The translations under genes were made by a program, and so were the position numbers. Shown here one piece after another: positions 12,064 through 21,939 of a stretch of 64,000 nt of DNA. The stretch's first letter is position 1, and every line of letters begins with the position of its first letter. Under the pieces are notes generated by a model. The model saw only the letters and a program-made list of their open reading frames with translations, did no database searches and had not been told where the DNA came from. The stretch is from assembly GCF_000429925.1 (NCBI RefSeq), contig NZ_KE386988.1, forward strand, positions 13,783-77,782, in the 5' to 3' direction. Source of the stretch: Desulfatirhabdium butyrativorans DSM 18734. Lineage in GTDB: Bacteria; Desulfobacterota; Desulfobacteria; Desulfobacterales; Desulfatirhabdiaceae.

Positions 12064-12748
12064 AGCGGTACACGCCTACTACGGAGACAGCCACGTGTTG
12101 CAGGGTGTGTCGCTTTCGGTGCGGCAGGGGGAAATCGTGTGCCTGCTGGGACGCAACGGGGCTGGAAAATCGACGACCATGAAGGCTGCTGTCGGGGTGG
12201 TGCCGCCTCGAAGCGGAAGCGTGCGGTTTCTCGGAGAGGAAATTGCCGGCAAACCCGTCTATACCATCGTCCGGAAAGGGCTGGCCTTCGTTCCGGAAGA
12301 CCGGCGCATCTTCGCCGGACTGACCGTGACCGAAAATCTGGAGGTTGCCCTGCTGCCGCCAAGGCCGGGGCTCGATCCCTGGACGATCGACCGGCTGTTT
12401 CAGGTGTTTCCGCTGCTGGATCGGCTGCGGGAGCGAAAAGGGGGCAATCTTTCGGGCGGGGAGCAGCAGATGCTCGCCATCGCCCGTGCGCTCGCCGGCA
12501 ATCCGGCCCTGCTGCTGCTCGACGAGCCTTGCGAAGGACTTGCACCCGTCATCGTTGAGGAGCTGGCCCGGGTCATCCTCGAAATCAAGAACACCATCCC
12601 CGTTCTTCTCGCCGAGCAGAACGCCCTCTTCGCCCTCTCCATCTCCGATCGGGGCTATGTCATCGACAAAGGCCTCATCCGCTACGAAGGCACCAGGCAC
12701 GAACTGCTGGCCAACACCGAGATTCAGTCGCGGTATCTTTCGGTATAG
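12050..12748 (+). CDS. livF: Branched-chain amino acid-type ABC transporter ATPase LivF
   Basis: A 232-residue ATP-binding subunit with Walker A GRNGAGKST (about residues 34-42), LSGGEQQ signature near residue 133 and Walker B LLLLDEPCEGL. The start at 12050 lies inside livG, 14 bases before its stop. The segment 12377-12699 is base-for-base identical to part of a truncated copy at 16472-16794, while the flanking livF-like sequence there is clearly diverged. That points to recent gene conversion or recombination. Confidence 0.94.
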   Translation: MLHLEAVHAYYGDSHVLQGVSLSVRQGEIVCLLGRNGAGKSTTMKAAVGVVPPRSGSVRFLGEEIAGKPVYTIVRKGLAFVPEDRRIFAGLTVTENLEVALLPPRPGLDPWTIDRLFQVFPLLDRLRERKGGNLSGGEQQMLAIARALAGNPALLLLDEPCEGLAPVIVEELARVILEIKNTIPVLLAEQNALFALSISDRGYVIDKGLIRYEGTRHELLANTEIQSRYLSV

Positions 12749-16312: not shown

Positions 16313-16843
16313 TTCCTGCGGTTTCTCGGAGAGGAAATTGGCGGCAAACCCGTCTATACCATCGTTCGCAAAGGGTTTCCCTTCGTTCCTGAAGACCGGC
16401 GCATCTTCGCCGGGCTGACCGTAACCGAAAACCTGGAAGTGGCGCTGCTGCCGCCGAGACCGGGTCTCGAACCCTGGACGATCGACCGGCTGTTTCAGGT
16501 GTTTCCGCTGCTGGATCGGCTGCGGGAGCGAAAAGGGGGCAATCTTTCGGGCGGGGAGCAGCAGATGCTCGCCATCGCCCGTGCGCTCGCCGGCAATCCG
16601 GCCCTGCTGCTGCTCGACGAGCCTTGCGAAGGACTTGCACCCGTCATCGTTGAGGAGCTGGCCCGGGTCATCCTCGAAATCAAGAACACCATCCCCGTTC
16701 TTCTCGCCGAGCAGAACGCCCTCTTCGCCCTCTCCATCTCCGATCGGGGCTATGTCATCGACAAAGGCCTCATCCGCTACGAAGGCACCAGGCAGGAGCT
16801 TCTGGCCAACACCGAGATTCAGTCGCGGTATCTTTCGGTGTAG
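16313..16843 (+). pseudogene. Truncated livF copy (lacks Walker A)
   Basis: This open frame matches the C-terminal three quarters of LivF from RFLGEEI onward, including LSGGEQQ and LLLLDEPCEGL, but has no N-terminal region and no Walker A motif, so it cannot be a working ATPase. Its 16472-16794 portion is identical over 323 bp to livF 12377-12699. The 5' part carries many mostly silent differences. It lies in the same orientation as livF about 4.1 kb away, so the two copies are direct repeats flanking the TonB/DUF4198 genes. It abuts the CRISPR locus. Confidence 0.9.
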
Positions 16844-16845
16844 TT

Positions 16846-16873
16846 GTAGGGGCGGTTCGCGAACCGCCCCTAC
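16846..16873. repeat. GTAGGGGCGG palindrome
   Basis: A perfect 28-bp inverted repeat (GTAGGGGCGGTTCG / CGAACCGCCCCTAC) three bases after the livF-remnant stop. The same kind of palindrome with a different centre occurs at 30485-30513. Confidence 0.8.
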
Positions 16874-16889
16874 GCATGCCCATCCATTT

Positions 16890-17072
16890 GTCCGTCGATC
16901 AAGCTGCTTTCACCATCGGAACCCCGGCCACCGAGGCAGCCAACACCACCCAGGCCGAGCTGTGTCAGTCGATCAAGCTGTTTTCACCATCGGAACCCCT
17001 TGAATTGAGACGGTTCCGGAGCGCAATATGGTGAGTGTCAGTCGATCAAGCTGTTTTCACCATCGGAACCCC
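16890..17072 (-). CRISPR. Three-repeat CRISPR array (type V-B)
   Basis: Three 36-bp direct repeats lie at 16890-16925, 16964-16999 and 17037-17072 (spacing 74 and 73). The plus-strand repeat contains GTCAGTCGATCAAGCTG followed by TTTTCACCATCGGAACCCC. Repeats 2 and 3 are identical; repeat 1 has two changes. The two spacers are 38 bp (16926-16963) and 37 bp (17000-17036) and unrelated to each other. I assign minus-strand transcription because the degenerate repeat, usually leader-distal, is at the low-coordinate end, and because cas12b and the tracrRNA candidate lie upstream on that strand. The leader would be 17073-17286; it has a TTGACA (17133-17128) but no convincing -10. Confidence 0.88.
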
Positions 17073-17286
17073 CCCCGGCCATCCAAGCCTTTGATGACAC
17101 TTCGCTTTTTTGCCACTTTGCGAGCAGTGTCAAAAATTGGGGAAAAAGCATCTTTCGACGGGCACTTCCAAGAGGCTTGGATCCCTCATTTTTTGAGTAA
17201 TTTGAATGGGTTCGAGCGCCTCCCATATCTCTCAACACCACATCGCCGCTCGCTGGGACCATTGCGGGTTCCGTTCATTCATCGGC

Positions 17287-17366
17287 AAAAAATTGATCGA
17301 CTCCACGCTGCCAAGCCCATTGAAGGGGGAGACACATAGCGTGGCTTTCTTGCCTCCTATAGAGGC
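17287..17366 (-). ncRNA. Candidate tracrRNA of the Cas12b system
   Basis: About 80 nt on the minus strand between cas12b and the array. In order: a 5' hairpin GCCTC-loop-GAGGC (17366-17352), a linker, a 7-bp stem CCACGCT (17344-17338) pairing with AGCGTGG (17309-17303) enclosing a small CCC/GGG hairpin, then immediately the anti-repeat AGTCGATCAA (17302-17293), perfectly complementary to ten bases of the crRNA repeat, and a T6 run (17292-17287). This order (5' hairpin, closing stem, anti-repeat directly after the stem, near-80-nt length) matches the known AacCas12b tracrRNA design. A promoter sits at the right distance. Not experimentally shown. Confidence 0.75.
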
Positions 17367-17372
17367 ACTTTG

Positions 17373-17402
17373 TTTATACCTTGTCAACGACAACAAAGTC
17401 AA
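17373..17402 (-). promoter_or_regulatory. Promoter of the candidate tracrRNA
   Basis: On the minus strand TTGACT (17402-17397), an 18-bp spacer and TATAAA (17378-17373) each match the sigma70 consensus at five of six positions. A start about seven bases downstream, near 17366, would begin exactly at the first hairpin of the tracrRNA candidate. Confidence 0.7.
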
Positions 17403-17469
17403 ACAGCAACGTATTCGTTTACCAGTACGGCTTCTACATGATCATCAGGGTTCTTTTAGAGCCTCTTTG

Positions 17470-20400
17470 TCAACCTTCGACATTGTCGCCCGTTCGGTTG
17501 TCAAGGCTTTTGATGTGTTCTTTCAACATCCGAATAACCCGATATTGAACATCGTTCTGATAGGCAGAGGTCTCTTTCCACTCTCCAATTTCGTTCGATT
17601 CGAGAGGGAAGGCCGAAATGTCCCGCCACAGATACACTTTTTCCTTTGATGTGCCAGCAGTCCTATTTTTCTTTCCTTTTCTGATTTTAGATGCAGCACC
17701 ATCCGCATTTGTTTGAGCAGGTTGTCGAAGCGGCTGCCCCACTTTCACAGCCGCACAGCCTTTTACATAATCCATTTTCGATTCGAAGCTGACCGGATCG
17801 CATGGTACGTACCACCACTTTCCGGGCCAATCGGGATCAGTAAGCGCCCGCAATCCGATGTTGGCCGCAGCGTTGAGATCCGCATGAATACCCTTGGCAG
17901 ACGGAGACTTGGAATCAGCCGAAACAAATATCTCCCCTCCTCTCAAGGGAATACGGACAAACCCAGCTTTCTTCCACTCGGCCGGCGTTTTGGCTTTCCA
18001 CGTTTTATTCAATTCACAGAGGAATCTCTCACGTGCATCGCCTTTGTTCTCGTCATGCTTGGCCTCCGCTTGCTTGACCTGCTTGCGCCAGAACGGTGAC
18101 TGCATGAATTCCCTGACAGAAACATCCTGACAACGGATTCCGGGCGCCCCCGTGCGGGAATCCTGGCGTGACGTGTACCATGCCGAGACTGTACAAAGGT
18201 AAAGGCCGTTGAGCTGGCAGGCTTCAGACAAATATTTATGGACTTTGGAAGCCGACCACGTCATGAGGCGGCGGTTTTCGAGGCGGGTGCGGGTTTCATC
18301 CGGACGATAGTTGGCAAGGTTTTCGATAACGACAGCATGGCATGGGGCAAAACGCGAGTCGTTTATGCGCTGGCGAGGACGTTTTCCACCGTCCCATCCC
18401 TTGCCTCCTTCGCTTCCGATGCCGAGCGCTGCCTCGGCAATTCGGCTGGCAAGTTGCTTGACGCGCTGTTCGCGCAAAAGTTCCAAGGCATCCAGCGTTT
18501 TCTGCCCGAATTGTTCCCCGATTTCATGCCTCGTGCCGTCAGGCCGAAGACGGGTGAAGAATCCGACTTGAACCTTGCGTCGGAACTCGGTAATCGTTGC
18601 AAGTCTGGATAGGGAGAGGCCGCCGACGTTTCGGATGGTCGCATTATTCGCTTGTGTTCCGCTTGGGAGTACCCAGTCTTTGAACCAGCGGAGCAGCTTT
18701 TTCCATCGCTGATCTTCGTCTTCCCAGCGTTCTTTCCAAGCATCACTCAACTCCTTACATGTTATCACATCCCCGGACAGCGTCTTCGCTACATTCCGGA
18801 GTTGTTCCCGATAGACCTGTTGCTTCTTCCGATACGCCACATCCGAAACATTGTCACCATTTTCTTCCGGAGCCTTGTACCCGGCCAATGTGGCAATCCG
18901 ACTGTCCCACAACTGCTTTGCTGCCTCATCCCGCCACCCAGGAGACGAGAACAATTCGTGCCAGAGGGCAAGCGCATCCTGCAACAGATCGATTCGACCA
19001 TTCTCGTCAAGCTTTTCCTGGATGCCGCCCGGTCTGATCTTCACTTCTGAAATAAGGTAATAAGCGATTCTCGCCCGGTTTCCATGTCGTTGTAGGGCGA
19101 GGCGCAAGGTGCGGACTGCAGAGAACATCAGATCATCCACAGCAAGGGATTCCCTGTAATCTTTCGCTTCACCGTCTTCGCGGGATAAATTTTCTGATGA
19201 ATCGGGCGCAGGTATCCAGCCGAGTTCTTTCAAAGCGTCCAGGCGCGCCATCTGTCTTTTTAGAAGGCCCCATCCGGAAGCGATTAGCCGATCGATCAGA
19301 GGTTTCGTGCGGTCAAGTTTGCACTCCATTTGATGCAACGCCCAGATTTCTTCATTGGAAGCCTCTCGGGCATCCTTCTCTTCACCCTGAAGTTTGATGA
19401 GGAACTGACGATCCAGCCTTGCCCAGGGAGCCGGATGGGGGCGGCCGTCCGGCAACGTATCCGCTCCGATGCGCCGATAAATGGTGGTTTTATCAACCTC
19501 GGTTTGTTTGCCTATTCCCTGCTTCTTCACCTTTATATGCAGGTAGAGATCGTGTTCCTTCGGCATATCCCGCCCGACGTTCTGGCAGGCTTCCTTGACC
19601 GTTTCCGTGTTCACAGCCTCCCATACGGCGCATGCAGCGGCGTAACGATGGCCAAGGTCCACGGAAAGCACGCGAAGGCCCGGTAGACGGGGGAGGATGA
19701 GCCGGGCGTGGACTTTCCGGTCCCGATTCGTATCAGCATGTGGCCAGTATTGGGGATTTGTATTCAGCCCGTGTTGTTCGGCATACGCGCACCAGGGGCC
19801 CTGCGGCTGCAACTTAACCGAGAATGTCACCAGCCAACGGATGTGTTCAATCATACCGCACATCCGGAGATTACGTTCTTGTTCGGATAAACGAGGGTTG
19901 TCCCTTACTACGGCAATGGCTTCCAACTGCTGCCTGGGTGCCTGCAAACGGCCATTCCAGTCTGCCTGTTCAAAGAGCCCAGTGATATTCACCATATCGC
20001 TCTTGGTCACATTTGAAGCAGCTCGCCCCAATCTGTCCGCGCGGGTGACCGCGGAAGCCGCATCATTTCTATGGTTGTTTCCAAGGGCCAAATCTCGTGT
20101 CAATCTCTTGGATTGCCAGCACAGCGGAACTGGCTTTATCTCGCTCCCGGTCCAAAGTGTCAGGCAAAGTCCACGATAAAAGGGTGCTTGAACGTTCTTG
20201 TGAACATCATAATTGATTTTCCATCGAGATTTTCCAAAATCACAGAAAACCGGATGCAACAATTCATCCGGGTGGCGGTATGCAGGCACCTTGAATTGCC
20301 TCTTCTTGAATTCCGCTTCAATTGCAAGAGAATAGTCAATCAGCGGTTGAAAGTCGGGCTCATTTGTAGCTTCTCCGTCCTTGTGCCAAACACATAAGGC

Positions 20401-21939
20401 GTCGTCTTCAGCAAGGGCTTCGAATAGCTGGATGTCGCCAAACTTGTCGATTTCGGAATCGTCCTGCAGCGCCCGTGCTGCGGCAATTCGATCTTCAGTT
20501 GATTTGCAGTCCGACTTGCTCCAAGCGGCGACCACTTCTTTCCATCCATCCACAGCCCGCCTACGGATCCGGTAGGGCTCTACAGCACCTGACGTTACCG
20601 AACGTTCCTTGCAGAACGAATCCAGCCATTCCCTGGCCCTAGCCGGGACATTGGCAATTCTTTTGGCATCTTCCTCAAATTTATGGCGTTCCGCCTCGGC
20701 ACGCTTTATCCACTTATGAGCCAGCGAAATACGACGCGCCGCGTGGTCAAGCATGACTGCGAAAATGTAATGCCTCGCTGTACCCCATTTGTAATCGACG
20801 TCATATTTTGAATAATCAGCAACTGAAACGGGTTGACCATCCTTATCGACTCGATAGGTGAACCCACAAACAGACTCCACGTCATTAAGGATGGCGTCGG
20901 AGTATGGTCGTTGCCCCTTCGATCCGATTTTAGATTTACAGCTTTCCGCACGCGTATTTGCCTTCTTCTTGAGATCGTCAAGGTGCGATTTGTTCAGTGA
21001 CGTATTCTGTCGAAGCAGTTCATGAACTGGATTGGGCGTATGACCAGTGTAGCTGCTCAGCCCAATTATCCAGTCAAGTCCATTTGTTGCTTTGGATTCC
21101 TTGGTATCGAAATGCTGCCGGAGTTCACTCACGAGGTCATCTACTGTAGATGATCCACCCTGGCTGGCATTGTCAGCCCACGCCGCGATTTTTCCATAGA
21201 TGTCGGACATGCGGCAGAAGTCGGCTCCTTCACTGGTACCGTATCGGCTGCTGAGCCATTGCCCTGCCTTCTGGACGAGATCCTTCGCTTTGTCCTCTTG
21301 CTCTGTCTCGGAAGATTTATCTTCGGGGTCTTTCATCGGGGTTAGATAGGCATCACGACTTCCGAAAAAGCGTTCCAGCATATCCCATGCTTCCTCGCGT
21401 GTGAGTGAGGAACCTACTGATTTGACCGCCTCATCAAACACCTTGCTCCGGTTGACCCAAACGGCGTCGTCACGGATGGCAGCCGAAAGAGATGCAGAGC
21501 AATCCCTCTTCCAATCGTCAATCTCGCTTTTCGCAACTTTCCTGCTTTGGAGGATTTCTTCAAGCGCCGATACAACGTTGTCGTTCCGATCTTTTGCAGG
21601 CTCATCACCGGATGCAACGATGTAACTCGACGGAGCCCCAAGCTTCGACTCCACCGAAAGCCATGACAGGGCTAACAGAATACGCCGCGCCTTGCGCTCC
21701 TCTGGTGTAGGATCACGGTCAGGTTTCCCTTTCCCACCCTTGACTTTTGTATCCGCCAGCGTATGGTCCAACCCTCCGCGCAACGTGAGCAGCCAATCGC
21801 CGAACACTTTGGCCCCTTTATTGACTGCCTCATGGGTATGCCAAAGCGCCTCACGCCATGAAAGATCACTCGGGTCAGCTCCACGGAGTCGAAGTGTGTA
21901 GGCTCGCTGGGTGACGGGTGGATTATTGGATAGCGGCAT
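17470..21939 (-). CDS. cas12b: Cas12b (C2c1)-like type V-B CRISPR effector nuclease
   Basis: A 1489-residue RNA-guided DNA endonuclease candidate. The N-terminus resembles Cas12b (LWHTHEAVNKGAKVFGDWL). RuvC-I is RVLSVDLGHRYAAA with D761, RuvC-II is VVIENLANYRPDE with E1206, and RuvC-III is GIHADLNAAANIGLRAL with D1354, so the catalytic triad is intact. The segment SRQDSRTGAPGIRCQ before RuvC-III and ENRRLMTWSASKV after RuvC-II are close to those of Alicyclobacillus Cas12b. There is no HNH domain. It is larger than usual for the family (about 1100-1300), with extra length before RuvC-I and between RuvC-I and RuvC-II. A GGGAGGGG site precedes the ATG. A tracrRNA candidate and array lie downstream; no cas1, cas2 or cas4 is nearby, so new spacers would need adaptation proteins from elsewhere. 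Confidence 0.95.
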   Translation of the reverse strand: MPLSNNPPVTQRAYTLRLRGADPSDLSWREALWHTHEAVNKGAKVFGDWLLTLRGGLDHTLADTKVKGGKGKPDRDPTPEERKARRILLALSWLSVESKLGAPSSYIVASGDEPAKDRNDNVVSALEEILQSRKVAKSEIDDWKRDCSASLSAAIRDDAVWVNRSKVFDEAVKSVGSSLTREEAWDMLERFFGSRDAYLTPMKDPEDKSSETEQEDKAKDLVQKAGQWLSSRYGTSEGADFCRMSDIYGKIAAWADNASQGGSSTVDDLVSELRQHFDTKESKATNGLDWIIGLSSYTGHTPNPVHELLRQNTSLNKSHLDDLKKKANTRAESCKSKIGSKGQRPYSDAILNDVESVCGFTYRVDKDGQPVSVADYSKYDVDYKWGTARHYIFAVMLDHAARRISLAHKWIKRAEAERHKFEEDAKRIANVPARAREWLDSFCKERSVTSGAVEPYRIRRRAVDGWKEVVAAWSKSDCKSTEDRIAAARALQDDSEIDKFGDIQLFEALAEDDALCVWHKDGEATNEPDFQPLIDYSLAIEAEFKKRQFKVPAYRHPDELLHPVFCDFGKSRWKINYDVHKNVQAPFYRGLCLTLWTGSEIKPVPLCWQSKRLTRDLALGNNHRNDAASAVTRADRLGRAASNVTKSDMVNITGLFEQADWNGRLQAPRQQLEAIAVVRDNPRLSEQERNLRMCGMIEHIRWLVTFSVKLQPQGPWCAYAEQHGLNTNPQYWPHADTNRDRKVHARLILPRLPGLRVLSVDLGHRYAAACAVWEAVNTETVKEACQNVGRDMPKEHDLYLHIKVKKQGIGKQTEVDKTTIYRRIGADTLPDGRPHPAPWARLDRQFLIKLQGEEKDAREASNEEIWALHQMECKLDRTKPLIDRLIASGWGLLKRQMARLDALKELGWIPAPDSSENLSREDGEAKDYRESLAVDDLMFSAVRTLRLALQRHGNRARIAYYLISEVKIRPGGIQEKLDENGRIDLLQDALALWHELFSSPGWRDEAAKQLWDSRIATLAGYKAPEENGDNVSDVAYRKKQQVYREQLRNVAKTLSGDVITCKELSDAWKERWEDEDQRWKKLLRWFKDWVLPSGTQANNATIRNVGGLSLSRLATITEFRRKVQVGFFTRLRPDGTRHEIGEQFGQKTLDALELLREQRVKQLASRIAEAALGIGSEGGKGWDGGKRPRQRINDSRFAPCHAVVIENLANYRPDETRTRLENRRLMTWSASKVHKYLSEACQLNGLYLCTVSAWYTSRQDSRTGAPGIRCQDVSVREFMQSPFWRKQVKQAEAKHDENKGDARERFLCELNKTWKAKTPAEWKKAGFVRIPLRGGEIFVSADSKSPSAKGIHADLNAAANIGLRALTDPDWPGKWWYVPCDPVSFESKMDYVKGCAAVKVGQPLRQPAQTNADGAASKIRKGKKNRTAGTSKEKVYLWRDISAFPLESNEIGEWKETSAYQNDVQYRVIRMLKEHIKSLDNRTGDNVEG

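Follow-up and report, generated by a model that had tools for sequence, protein, structure and literature searches.

The Cas12b nucleases of type V-B CRISPR systems require a small helper RNA, the tracrRNA, for guide binding. In the pathway described for these systems, this RNA pairs with the repeat and the spacer guides cutting near a T-rich 5′ motif (available text of PMC6255809, PMC6342934 and PMC11246509). The available part of PMC11423069 describes tracrRNAs for 15 Cas12b orthologs, which range in size over 1064-1529 aa; 11 of their loci are arranged in the order Cas12b, Cas1, Cas2, tracrRNA, array. Thirteen of the repeats in that set end in CAC, and the majority of the RNAs form three stem-loops, the second of which has a bulge that is often able to pair with the 3′ end of the repeat; for NiCas12b, editing is dramatically reduced without this bulge. 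The AacCas12b protein has 1129 aa, and for AaCas12b truncation of stem-loops 1 and 2 abolished activity, with stem-loop 3 tolerating shortening (PMC6255809, available text). The BhCas12b duplex consists of a 30-bp stem with a bulge and a 5-bp short duplex (PMC11246509, available text).

The window analysed here is a stretch of 64,000 nucleotides from the genome of Desulfatirhabdium butyrativorans DSM 18734, and a minus-strand element within it is almost certainly the tracrRNA of a type V-B (Cas12b) CRISPR system, with expression that is predicted. This reading is supported by the sequence, its placement, its conservation, covariation in its stems and predicted pairing with the repeat. The first-pass annotation had arrived at a Cas12b tracrRNA from the letters alone, and the neighbouring Cas12b gene, the placement, the covariation and the published layout all bear this out.

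The Cas12b locus and its effector

On the minus strand of the window, the order of elements is cas12b, promoter, tracrRNA, leader and a three-repeat array, with the tracrRNA on the same strand as the effector gene and the array and located between both. The cas12b gene (17470-21939) is a full open frame of 1489 aa whose product is assigned to Cas12b by NCBIfam NF033949 (1347.9 bits versus a cut-off of 150) and by PADLOC (1397.5 bits), and a relative of solved structure, PDB 9kln (1496 aa), matches it over residues 10-1479 with 1731.8 bits. Residues D761, E1206 and D1354 are invariant in an alignment of four Cas12b proteins and are presumably the RuvC acidic residues with a catalytic role.

Cas12b is rare around this organism. 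Matches above the cut-off are found in one of 57 relatives and in one of 389 genomes of the class, in both cases Desulfatirhabdium itself, and in five of 297 genomes of the phylum, Desulfatirhabdium included; this rarity suggests horizontal arrival of the locus. Searches for relatives of the effector gave none in IMG/VR with the full protein as query and none in phages with the last 510 residues as query, and a single plasmid record with a Cas12b relative was found both with the last 510 residues and with the Alicyclobacillus dauci protein. A scan of genome contigs returned seven relatives, six of which carry a homologous RNA, the seventh (L002) ending inside cas4/cas1. Altogether, the same RNA is found between the cas genes and the array in nine other Cas12b loci.

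Among other features of the window, 300 nt from an ABC transporter ATPase gene are duplicated with 94% identity (12222-12521 and 16317-16616), and Pfam ABC_tran is present in both copies. The duplicates flank genes for a TonB-dependent receptor and a DUF4198 protein and adjoin the CRISPR locus. A TPP riboswitch is located at 2861-2955 on the minus strand (70.1 bits).

Structure and conservation of the tracrRNA

As modelled, the tracrRNA covers 103 nt (17266-17368, minus strand, covariance model R1), its 5′ end near 17368-17370 being estimated from the promoter and its 3′ end from the predicted pairing. Model R1 scores 111.3 bits in the window, which is itself one of the 10 model rows. In the predicted sigma-70-like promoter (17373-17402), TTGACT (17402-17397) is separated from TATAAA (17378-17373) by an 18-nt spacer (17396-17379), exactly the letters noted for it in the first-pass annotation. 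A promoter consensus scan called no promoter on the minus strand, TATAAA being without the final T that the scan demands. As judged by eye in the alignment, TTGAC precedes the RNA in six of the nine relatives, with 17-nt spacing to TATATT or TATACT; L015 has TTAAC at the -35 place, and L004 and L006 are without a good -35 element. Stem-loop 1 (TGCCTCTATAGGAGGCA, 17351-17367) is defined by folding and covariation. Stem-loop 2 (17303-17344) is closed by CCACGCT (17344-17338) and AGCGTGG (17309-17303) and contains an inner CCC/GGG hairpin (17316-17327) that rests on folding. The first hairpin, the closing stem with its inner hairpin and the ten-base anti-repeat had all been placed correctly before this analysis. 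No Rfam family matches the RNA at gathering thresholds.

Folding of single sequences gives a mixed picture, and the stronger support comes from the comparison of loci. Folded alone, a 76-nt form of the RNA reaches z = -2.52 (3 of 200 dinucleotide shuffles are equally stable), and the form extended to 17260 (109 nt) is not unusual (z = -0.92, 37 of 200 shuffles). Single relatives are likewise not unusual (L007, z = -1.46; L004, z = -1.47; L003, z = -0.25, with its stem-loop 1 cut by the chosen ends). Across the ten aligned rows, pairing holds in 98.9% of 178 cells, and 7 of 18 base pairs have changed on both sides yet are still paired, values that none of 500 shuffles match. Nor does any of the 500 shuffles attain the observed covariation score or as many doubly changed cells; a fifth measure, further pair types, shows no excess (327 of 500 shuffles reach the observed value). 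The changes retain pairing in both stems, at three of six counted pairs in stem-loop 1 and four of six in the closing stem of stem-loop 2; the six inner pairs of stem-loop 2 never vary across the 10 rows. When the structures are slid by 1 to 3 columns, at most two pairs are changed on both sides. The rows of this alignment are not independent: L003, L005, L008 and L017 form a close group, and L004 is nearly identical to L006. In these last two, the closing stem is interrupted by an alignment gap, which counts against the structure. Covariance among related Cas12b loci had been set beforehand as the test that could refute the prediction, and the prediction passed it.

The RNA can also be recovered from its profile. 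A seed of six sequences (window, L003, L004, L005, L007 and L008) finds the RNA outside the seed in L017, L014, L006 and L015 (E 3e-34, 6e-26, 1e-23 and 6e-21, respectively), the L006 match being near-identical to the seed member L004. With strict filters, the covariance model matches four of the 297 genomes of the phylum, all at Cas12b loci, and it has no match in the 292 phylum genomes without Cas12b over the cut-off; because the four matched genomes were in the model, the information lies solely in the lack of matches elsewhere. The model misses the fifth genome with Cas12b, G283 (locus L016), and the locus of G683 (L020) scores only 15.4 bits (E 0.094); the model therefore covers one Cas12b branch and not all. 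L016 (3660-3900, minus strand, of G283) is a divergent Cas12b locus with a repeat that is without the CAC end, and by eye the stretch from cas2 to the array holds a shorter putative tracrRNA that has two hairpins and whose bulged anti-repeat appears to run into the leader box.

Array, leader and adaptation genes

The CRISPR array (16888-17072, minus strand) consists of three repeats of 38 nt and two spacers of 35 and 36 nt, and its leader-distal repeat is degenerate and ends in GACAA. A 19-nt stretch of the repeat, with two mismatches at most, has three matches in the 4.48-Mb genome, all of them in the array. Phage and virus searches found no protospacer for spacer 1. With E values of 10 or below, spacer 2 matches 76 phage records, and TTN followed by its first 21 bases is found exactly in IMG/VR contig L030. 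That partial match (L030 6849-6884, 28 of 36 over the whole spacer) has TTC in front and is located in a phage baseplate hub gene; the first 27 bases of the spacer have no exact match. An Acidovorax phage matches spacer 2 at 95.8% over 24 bases (E 0.03), in a different, hypothetical gene. Regulation of the locus by its own spacers was considered and set aside, the best seed match of spacer 1 elsewhere in the window being 9 nt long, within cas12b and next to TAT rather than TTN, and judged to be chance. Just past the distal end of the array is a perfect 28-nt palindrome, GTAGGGGCGGTTCGCGAACCGCCCCTAC (16846-16873). The genome contains a second CRISPR array (L039, 2252-2889) near a Cas1 match on contig C10, with a repeat of what we take to be a type I-E look.

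The leader (17073-17265, minus strand) contains three short boxes, CGAG at -180 and CTCG at -144 and -52. The last of these starts at -52 from the first repeat in all 12 type V-B loci compared (window, L003-L008, L014-L017 and A. dauci, L040), a register that depends on the chosen repeat start; other stretch ends, with L017 trimmed by 8, place the box at -51 to -53. No other 4-mer between -200 and -6 is found in more than 9 of the 12 loci within a 3-nt window. Ungapped identity over the last 120 nt of the leader is 28-67% for most pairs of loci, and the near-identity of L005 and L008 (95%) and of L004 and L006 (100%) means that about 9 or 10 of the loci are independent. The inverted CGAG box is found 35-37 nt upstream of the second CTCG box, and where extra CTCG sites occur (L004, L006, L014 and A. 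dauci) the one at this distance from CGAG was taken. The two CTCG boxes are separated by 81-84 nt in four loci and by 90-92 nt in eight, two classes that are roughly one helical turn apart.

A conserved RNA structure in the leader was rejected, as the RNAalifold covariation term is against structure (+0.77 kcal/mol), although 3 of 19 pairs in the leader alignment have a row changed on both sides. The boxes, which RNA covariation fails to explain, are better read as a DNA motif. A short open reading frame seen by eye in the leader was dropped, its frame not being kept in all rows. There is an even chance that the three boxes in fixed register act as a DNA platform during spacer integration, one that holds Cas4/1-Cas2 or a bending protein in position, and the register, if true, would make type V-B spacer integration directly testable. 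No earlier report of a V-B leader motif was found in the literature searched, including the available text of PMC9419969.

The leader boxes are intact in the window although cas4/cas1 and cas2 are absent from the locus, where only a 67-nt gap (17403-17469) separates the cas12b stop from the -35 element. Of 11 relative loci, 9 have a cas4/cas1 fusion beside cas12b; the fusion is broken into pieces in L003 and L017, and Cas2 follows it in L005. The stretches examined of L004 and L006 have no cas4/cas1. Seven comparisons of the 67-nt gap with a cas2 3′ end gave one unusual result (L014, reached by 12 of 500 shuffles) and six between 206 and 418 of 500, which is suggestive, at the level of sequence, of a possible relic of the cas2 3′ end. 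Elsewhere in the genome, Cas1 matches are found on contigs C10, C21, C30 and C66 and Cas2 matches on C21, C30 and C66, with neither on the contig of the window (C69). The match on C66 is a Cas4-Cas1 fusion that is 37% identical to the fusion of L005, and the RAMP-family gene close to it points to perhaps a type III system. Adaptation in trans by this fusion is possible.

Anti-repeats, the 3′ end and relation to described systems

The RNA contains two regions complementary to the repeat. The short anti-repeat, GTGTC (17331-17335), was overlooked in the first-pass annotation and complements the repeat 3′ end, GACAC. It is invariant in all 10 rows and complements the last five bases of all seven repeats read. 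In A. dauci the corresponding pair is GTGCC/GGCAC, with both sides changed. When the RNA is folded alone, the last three bases of GTGTC pair inside stem-loop 2. The effect of bulge removal in NiCas12b fits this short anti-repeat.

The long anti-repeat (17266-17302) is bulged and consists of AGTCGATCAA (17293-17302), a middle run using the T-stretch, and CGGAACCC (17266-17273). In the predicted duplex with the repeat, ten pairs are followed by a bulge, a second run that includes the T-stretch, and then CGGAACCC, with an energy of -31.4 kcal/mol over 17302-17266 against -14.4 kcal/mol if the RNA is cut at T6; A. dauci shows the same pattern at -46.8 kcal/mol. When the 45-nt tracr 3′ region of the window is paired with its own repeat, 1 of 1000 shuffles does better; in six other loci 0 to 35 do, so that all seven beat at least 965 of 1000. 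These are 7 of the 10 tracr loci, L006 being set aside because it duplicates L004, and L005 and L017 because they are without a full array. Among the seven repeats, the cognate one scores best in three loci only (window, L007 and L015), with L003, L004, L008 and L014 scoring higher with a foreign repeat, which in three of these is the repeat of L014. The distal half of the long anti-repeat, taken from a split point picked after inspection, stands out against 1000 shuffles in L015 (0), L007 (17) and the window (22) and is weak in L008 (190), L004 (454), L014 (586) and L003 (744). On the basis of this modelled pairing, the RNA probably extends beyond T6, which would fall within a longer bulged anti-repeat reaching at least 17266. 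The ten-base anti-repeat described previously does follow directly after the stem and forms its ten pairs with the repeat, and T6 is present at 17292-17287; the anti-repeat is probably longer than ten bases, however, and both T6 as the RNA end and the length of about 80 nt are judged unlikely.

An RNA of that length, ending by intrinsic termination at T6 after the ten-base anti-repeat, is nevertheless a rival with evidence of its own. Both hairpins and ten perfect anti-repeat pairs precede the T-run, a form of 76-82 nt out-folds its shuffles where the longer form does not, and the distal half of the anti-repeat is weak in four of the seven loci noted above. None of the nine relatives has T6 at the corresponding place, the longest T-run there being 4, and T6 itself stands 10 nt from the stem, where a terminator scan called no terminator on the minus strand. 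Pairing moreover crosses T6 to 17266, as in A. dauci and in the bulged 30-bp stem of BhCas12b (PMC11246509, available text), and termination at T6 is accordingly judged unlikely. There is only a very slight probability that the element acts in cis, as a leader or riboregulator for the array or for cas12b, and is not a partner of the crRNA in trans. Its location upstream of the array on the same strand means that read-through transcripts could include it, but each anti-repeat is complementary to the repeats, in A. dauci the short one and the repeat end have changed in step, and the Rfam comparison gave no family.

The locus has two spacers only and is without cas4/cas1 and cas2, which may mean that the system is in decay; the tracrRNA would then be the remnant of a system that stopped working after losing its adaptation genes. 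The presence of cas4/cas1 beside cas12b in most relative loci, the location of Cas1 and Cas2 on other contigs, the degenerate last repeat and the lack of a clear protospacer in the searches are in keeping with such decay. Interference is not known to need adaptation genes. The effector is a full open frame with its RuvC acidic residues, the stems, both anti-repeats and the leader boxes are intact, and L004 and L006 are also without cas4/cas1 in the stretches examined, yet have 38 and 9 exact repeats. Decay is therefore considered improbable, to about the same degree as termination at T6, and a working tracrRNA is the preferred reading.

By analogy with published Cas12b systems, the sigma-70 promoter (17402-17373) would start a minus-strand RNA near 17368, whose stem-loops 1 and 2 would serve as the scaffold that Cas12b grips. 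Both GTGTC (17335-17331) and the long anti-repeat (17302-17266) would pair with the repeat in the array transcript, the resulting duplex would be trimmed, and Cas12b loaded with crRNA would cut DNA bearing a 5′-TTN motif. The RNA is a likely guide-RNA scaffold for another long Cas12b, and the revised 3′ boundary matters for sgRNA design. The covariation-supported structure also provides a model for the long Cas12b branch, which is without an Rfam match here.

The first-pass annotation had likened the element to the Cas12b tracrRNA layout, and its placement, hairpin order and anti-repeat position do match the published descriptions and A. dauci. The A. dauci locus, on an Alicyclobacillus plasmid (NZ_CP104065.1), has stem-loop 1, the closing stem, and the short and long bulged anti-repeats in the same order, but by eye its RNA has little primary sequence in common with that of the window and its inner hairpin is longer. 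Its cas12b is annotated as two overlapping genes, so the locus may be damaged. The Cas12b of PDB 9kln, for which the literature search found no paper with that entry code, belongs to the same long branch, a likeness that is by protein alone. The window Cas12b is 53% and 54% identical in two aligned segments to that of the Nitrospira sp. locus L008 (57% in the four-protein alignment). The closest described systems are the long orthologs NiCas12b (Nitrospira sp., 1440 aa) and DtCas12b (1529 aa), which by their description in the available part of PMC11423069 have the same layout and guide-RNA fold; compared with these, the window locus is without Cas1/Cas2, has a T-run in the anti-repeat and has its own sequence. 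As the published set already shows this layout and fold, the window tracrRNA belongs to a known kind: the gene is real and conserved, and it is a new example of a kind of RNA already described.
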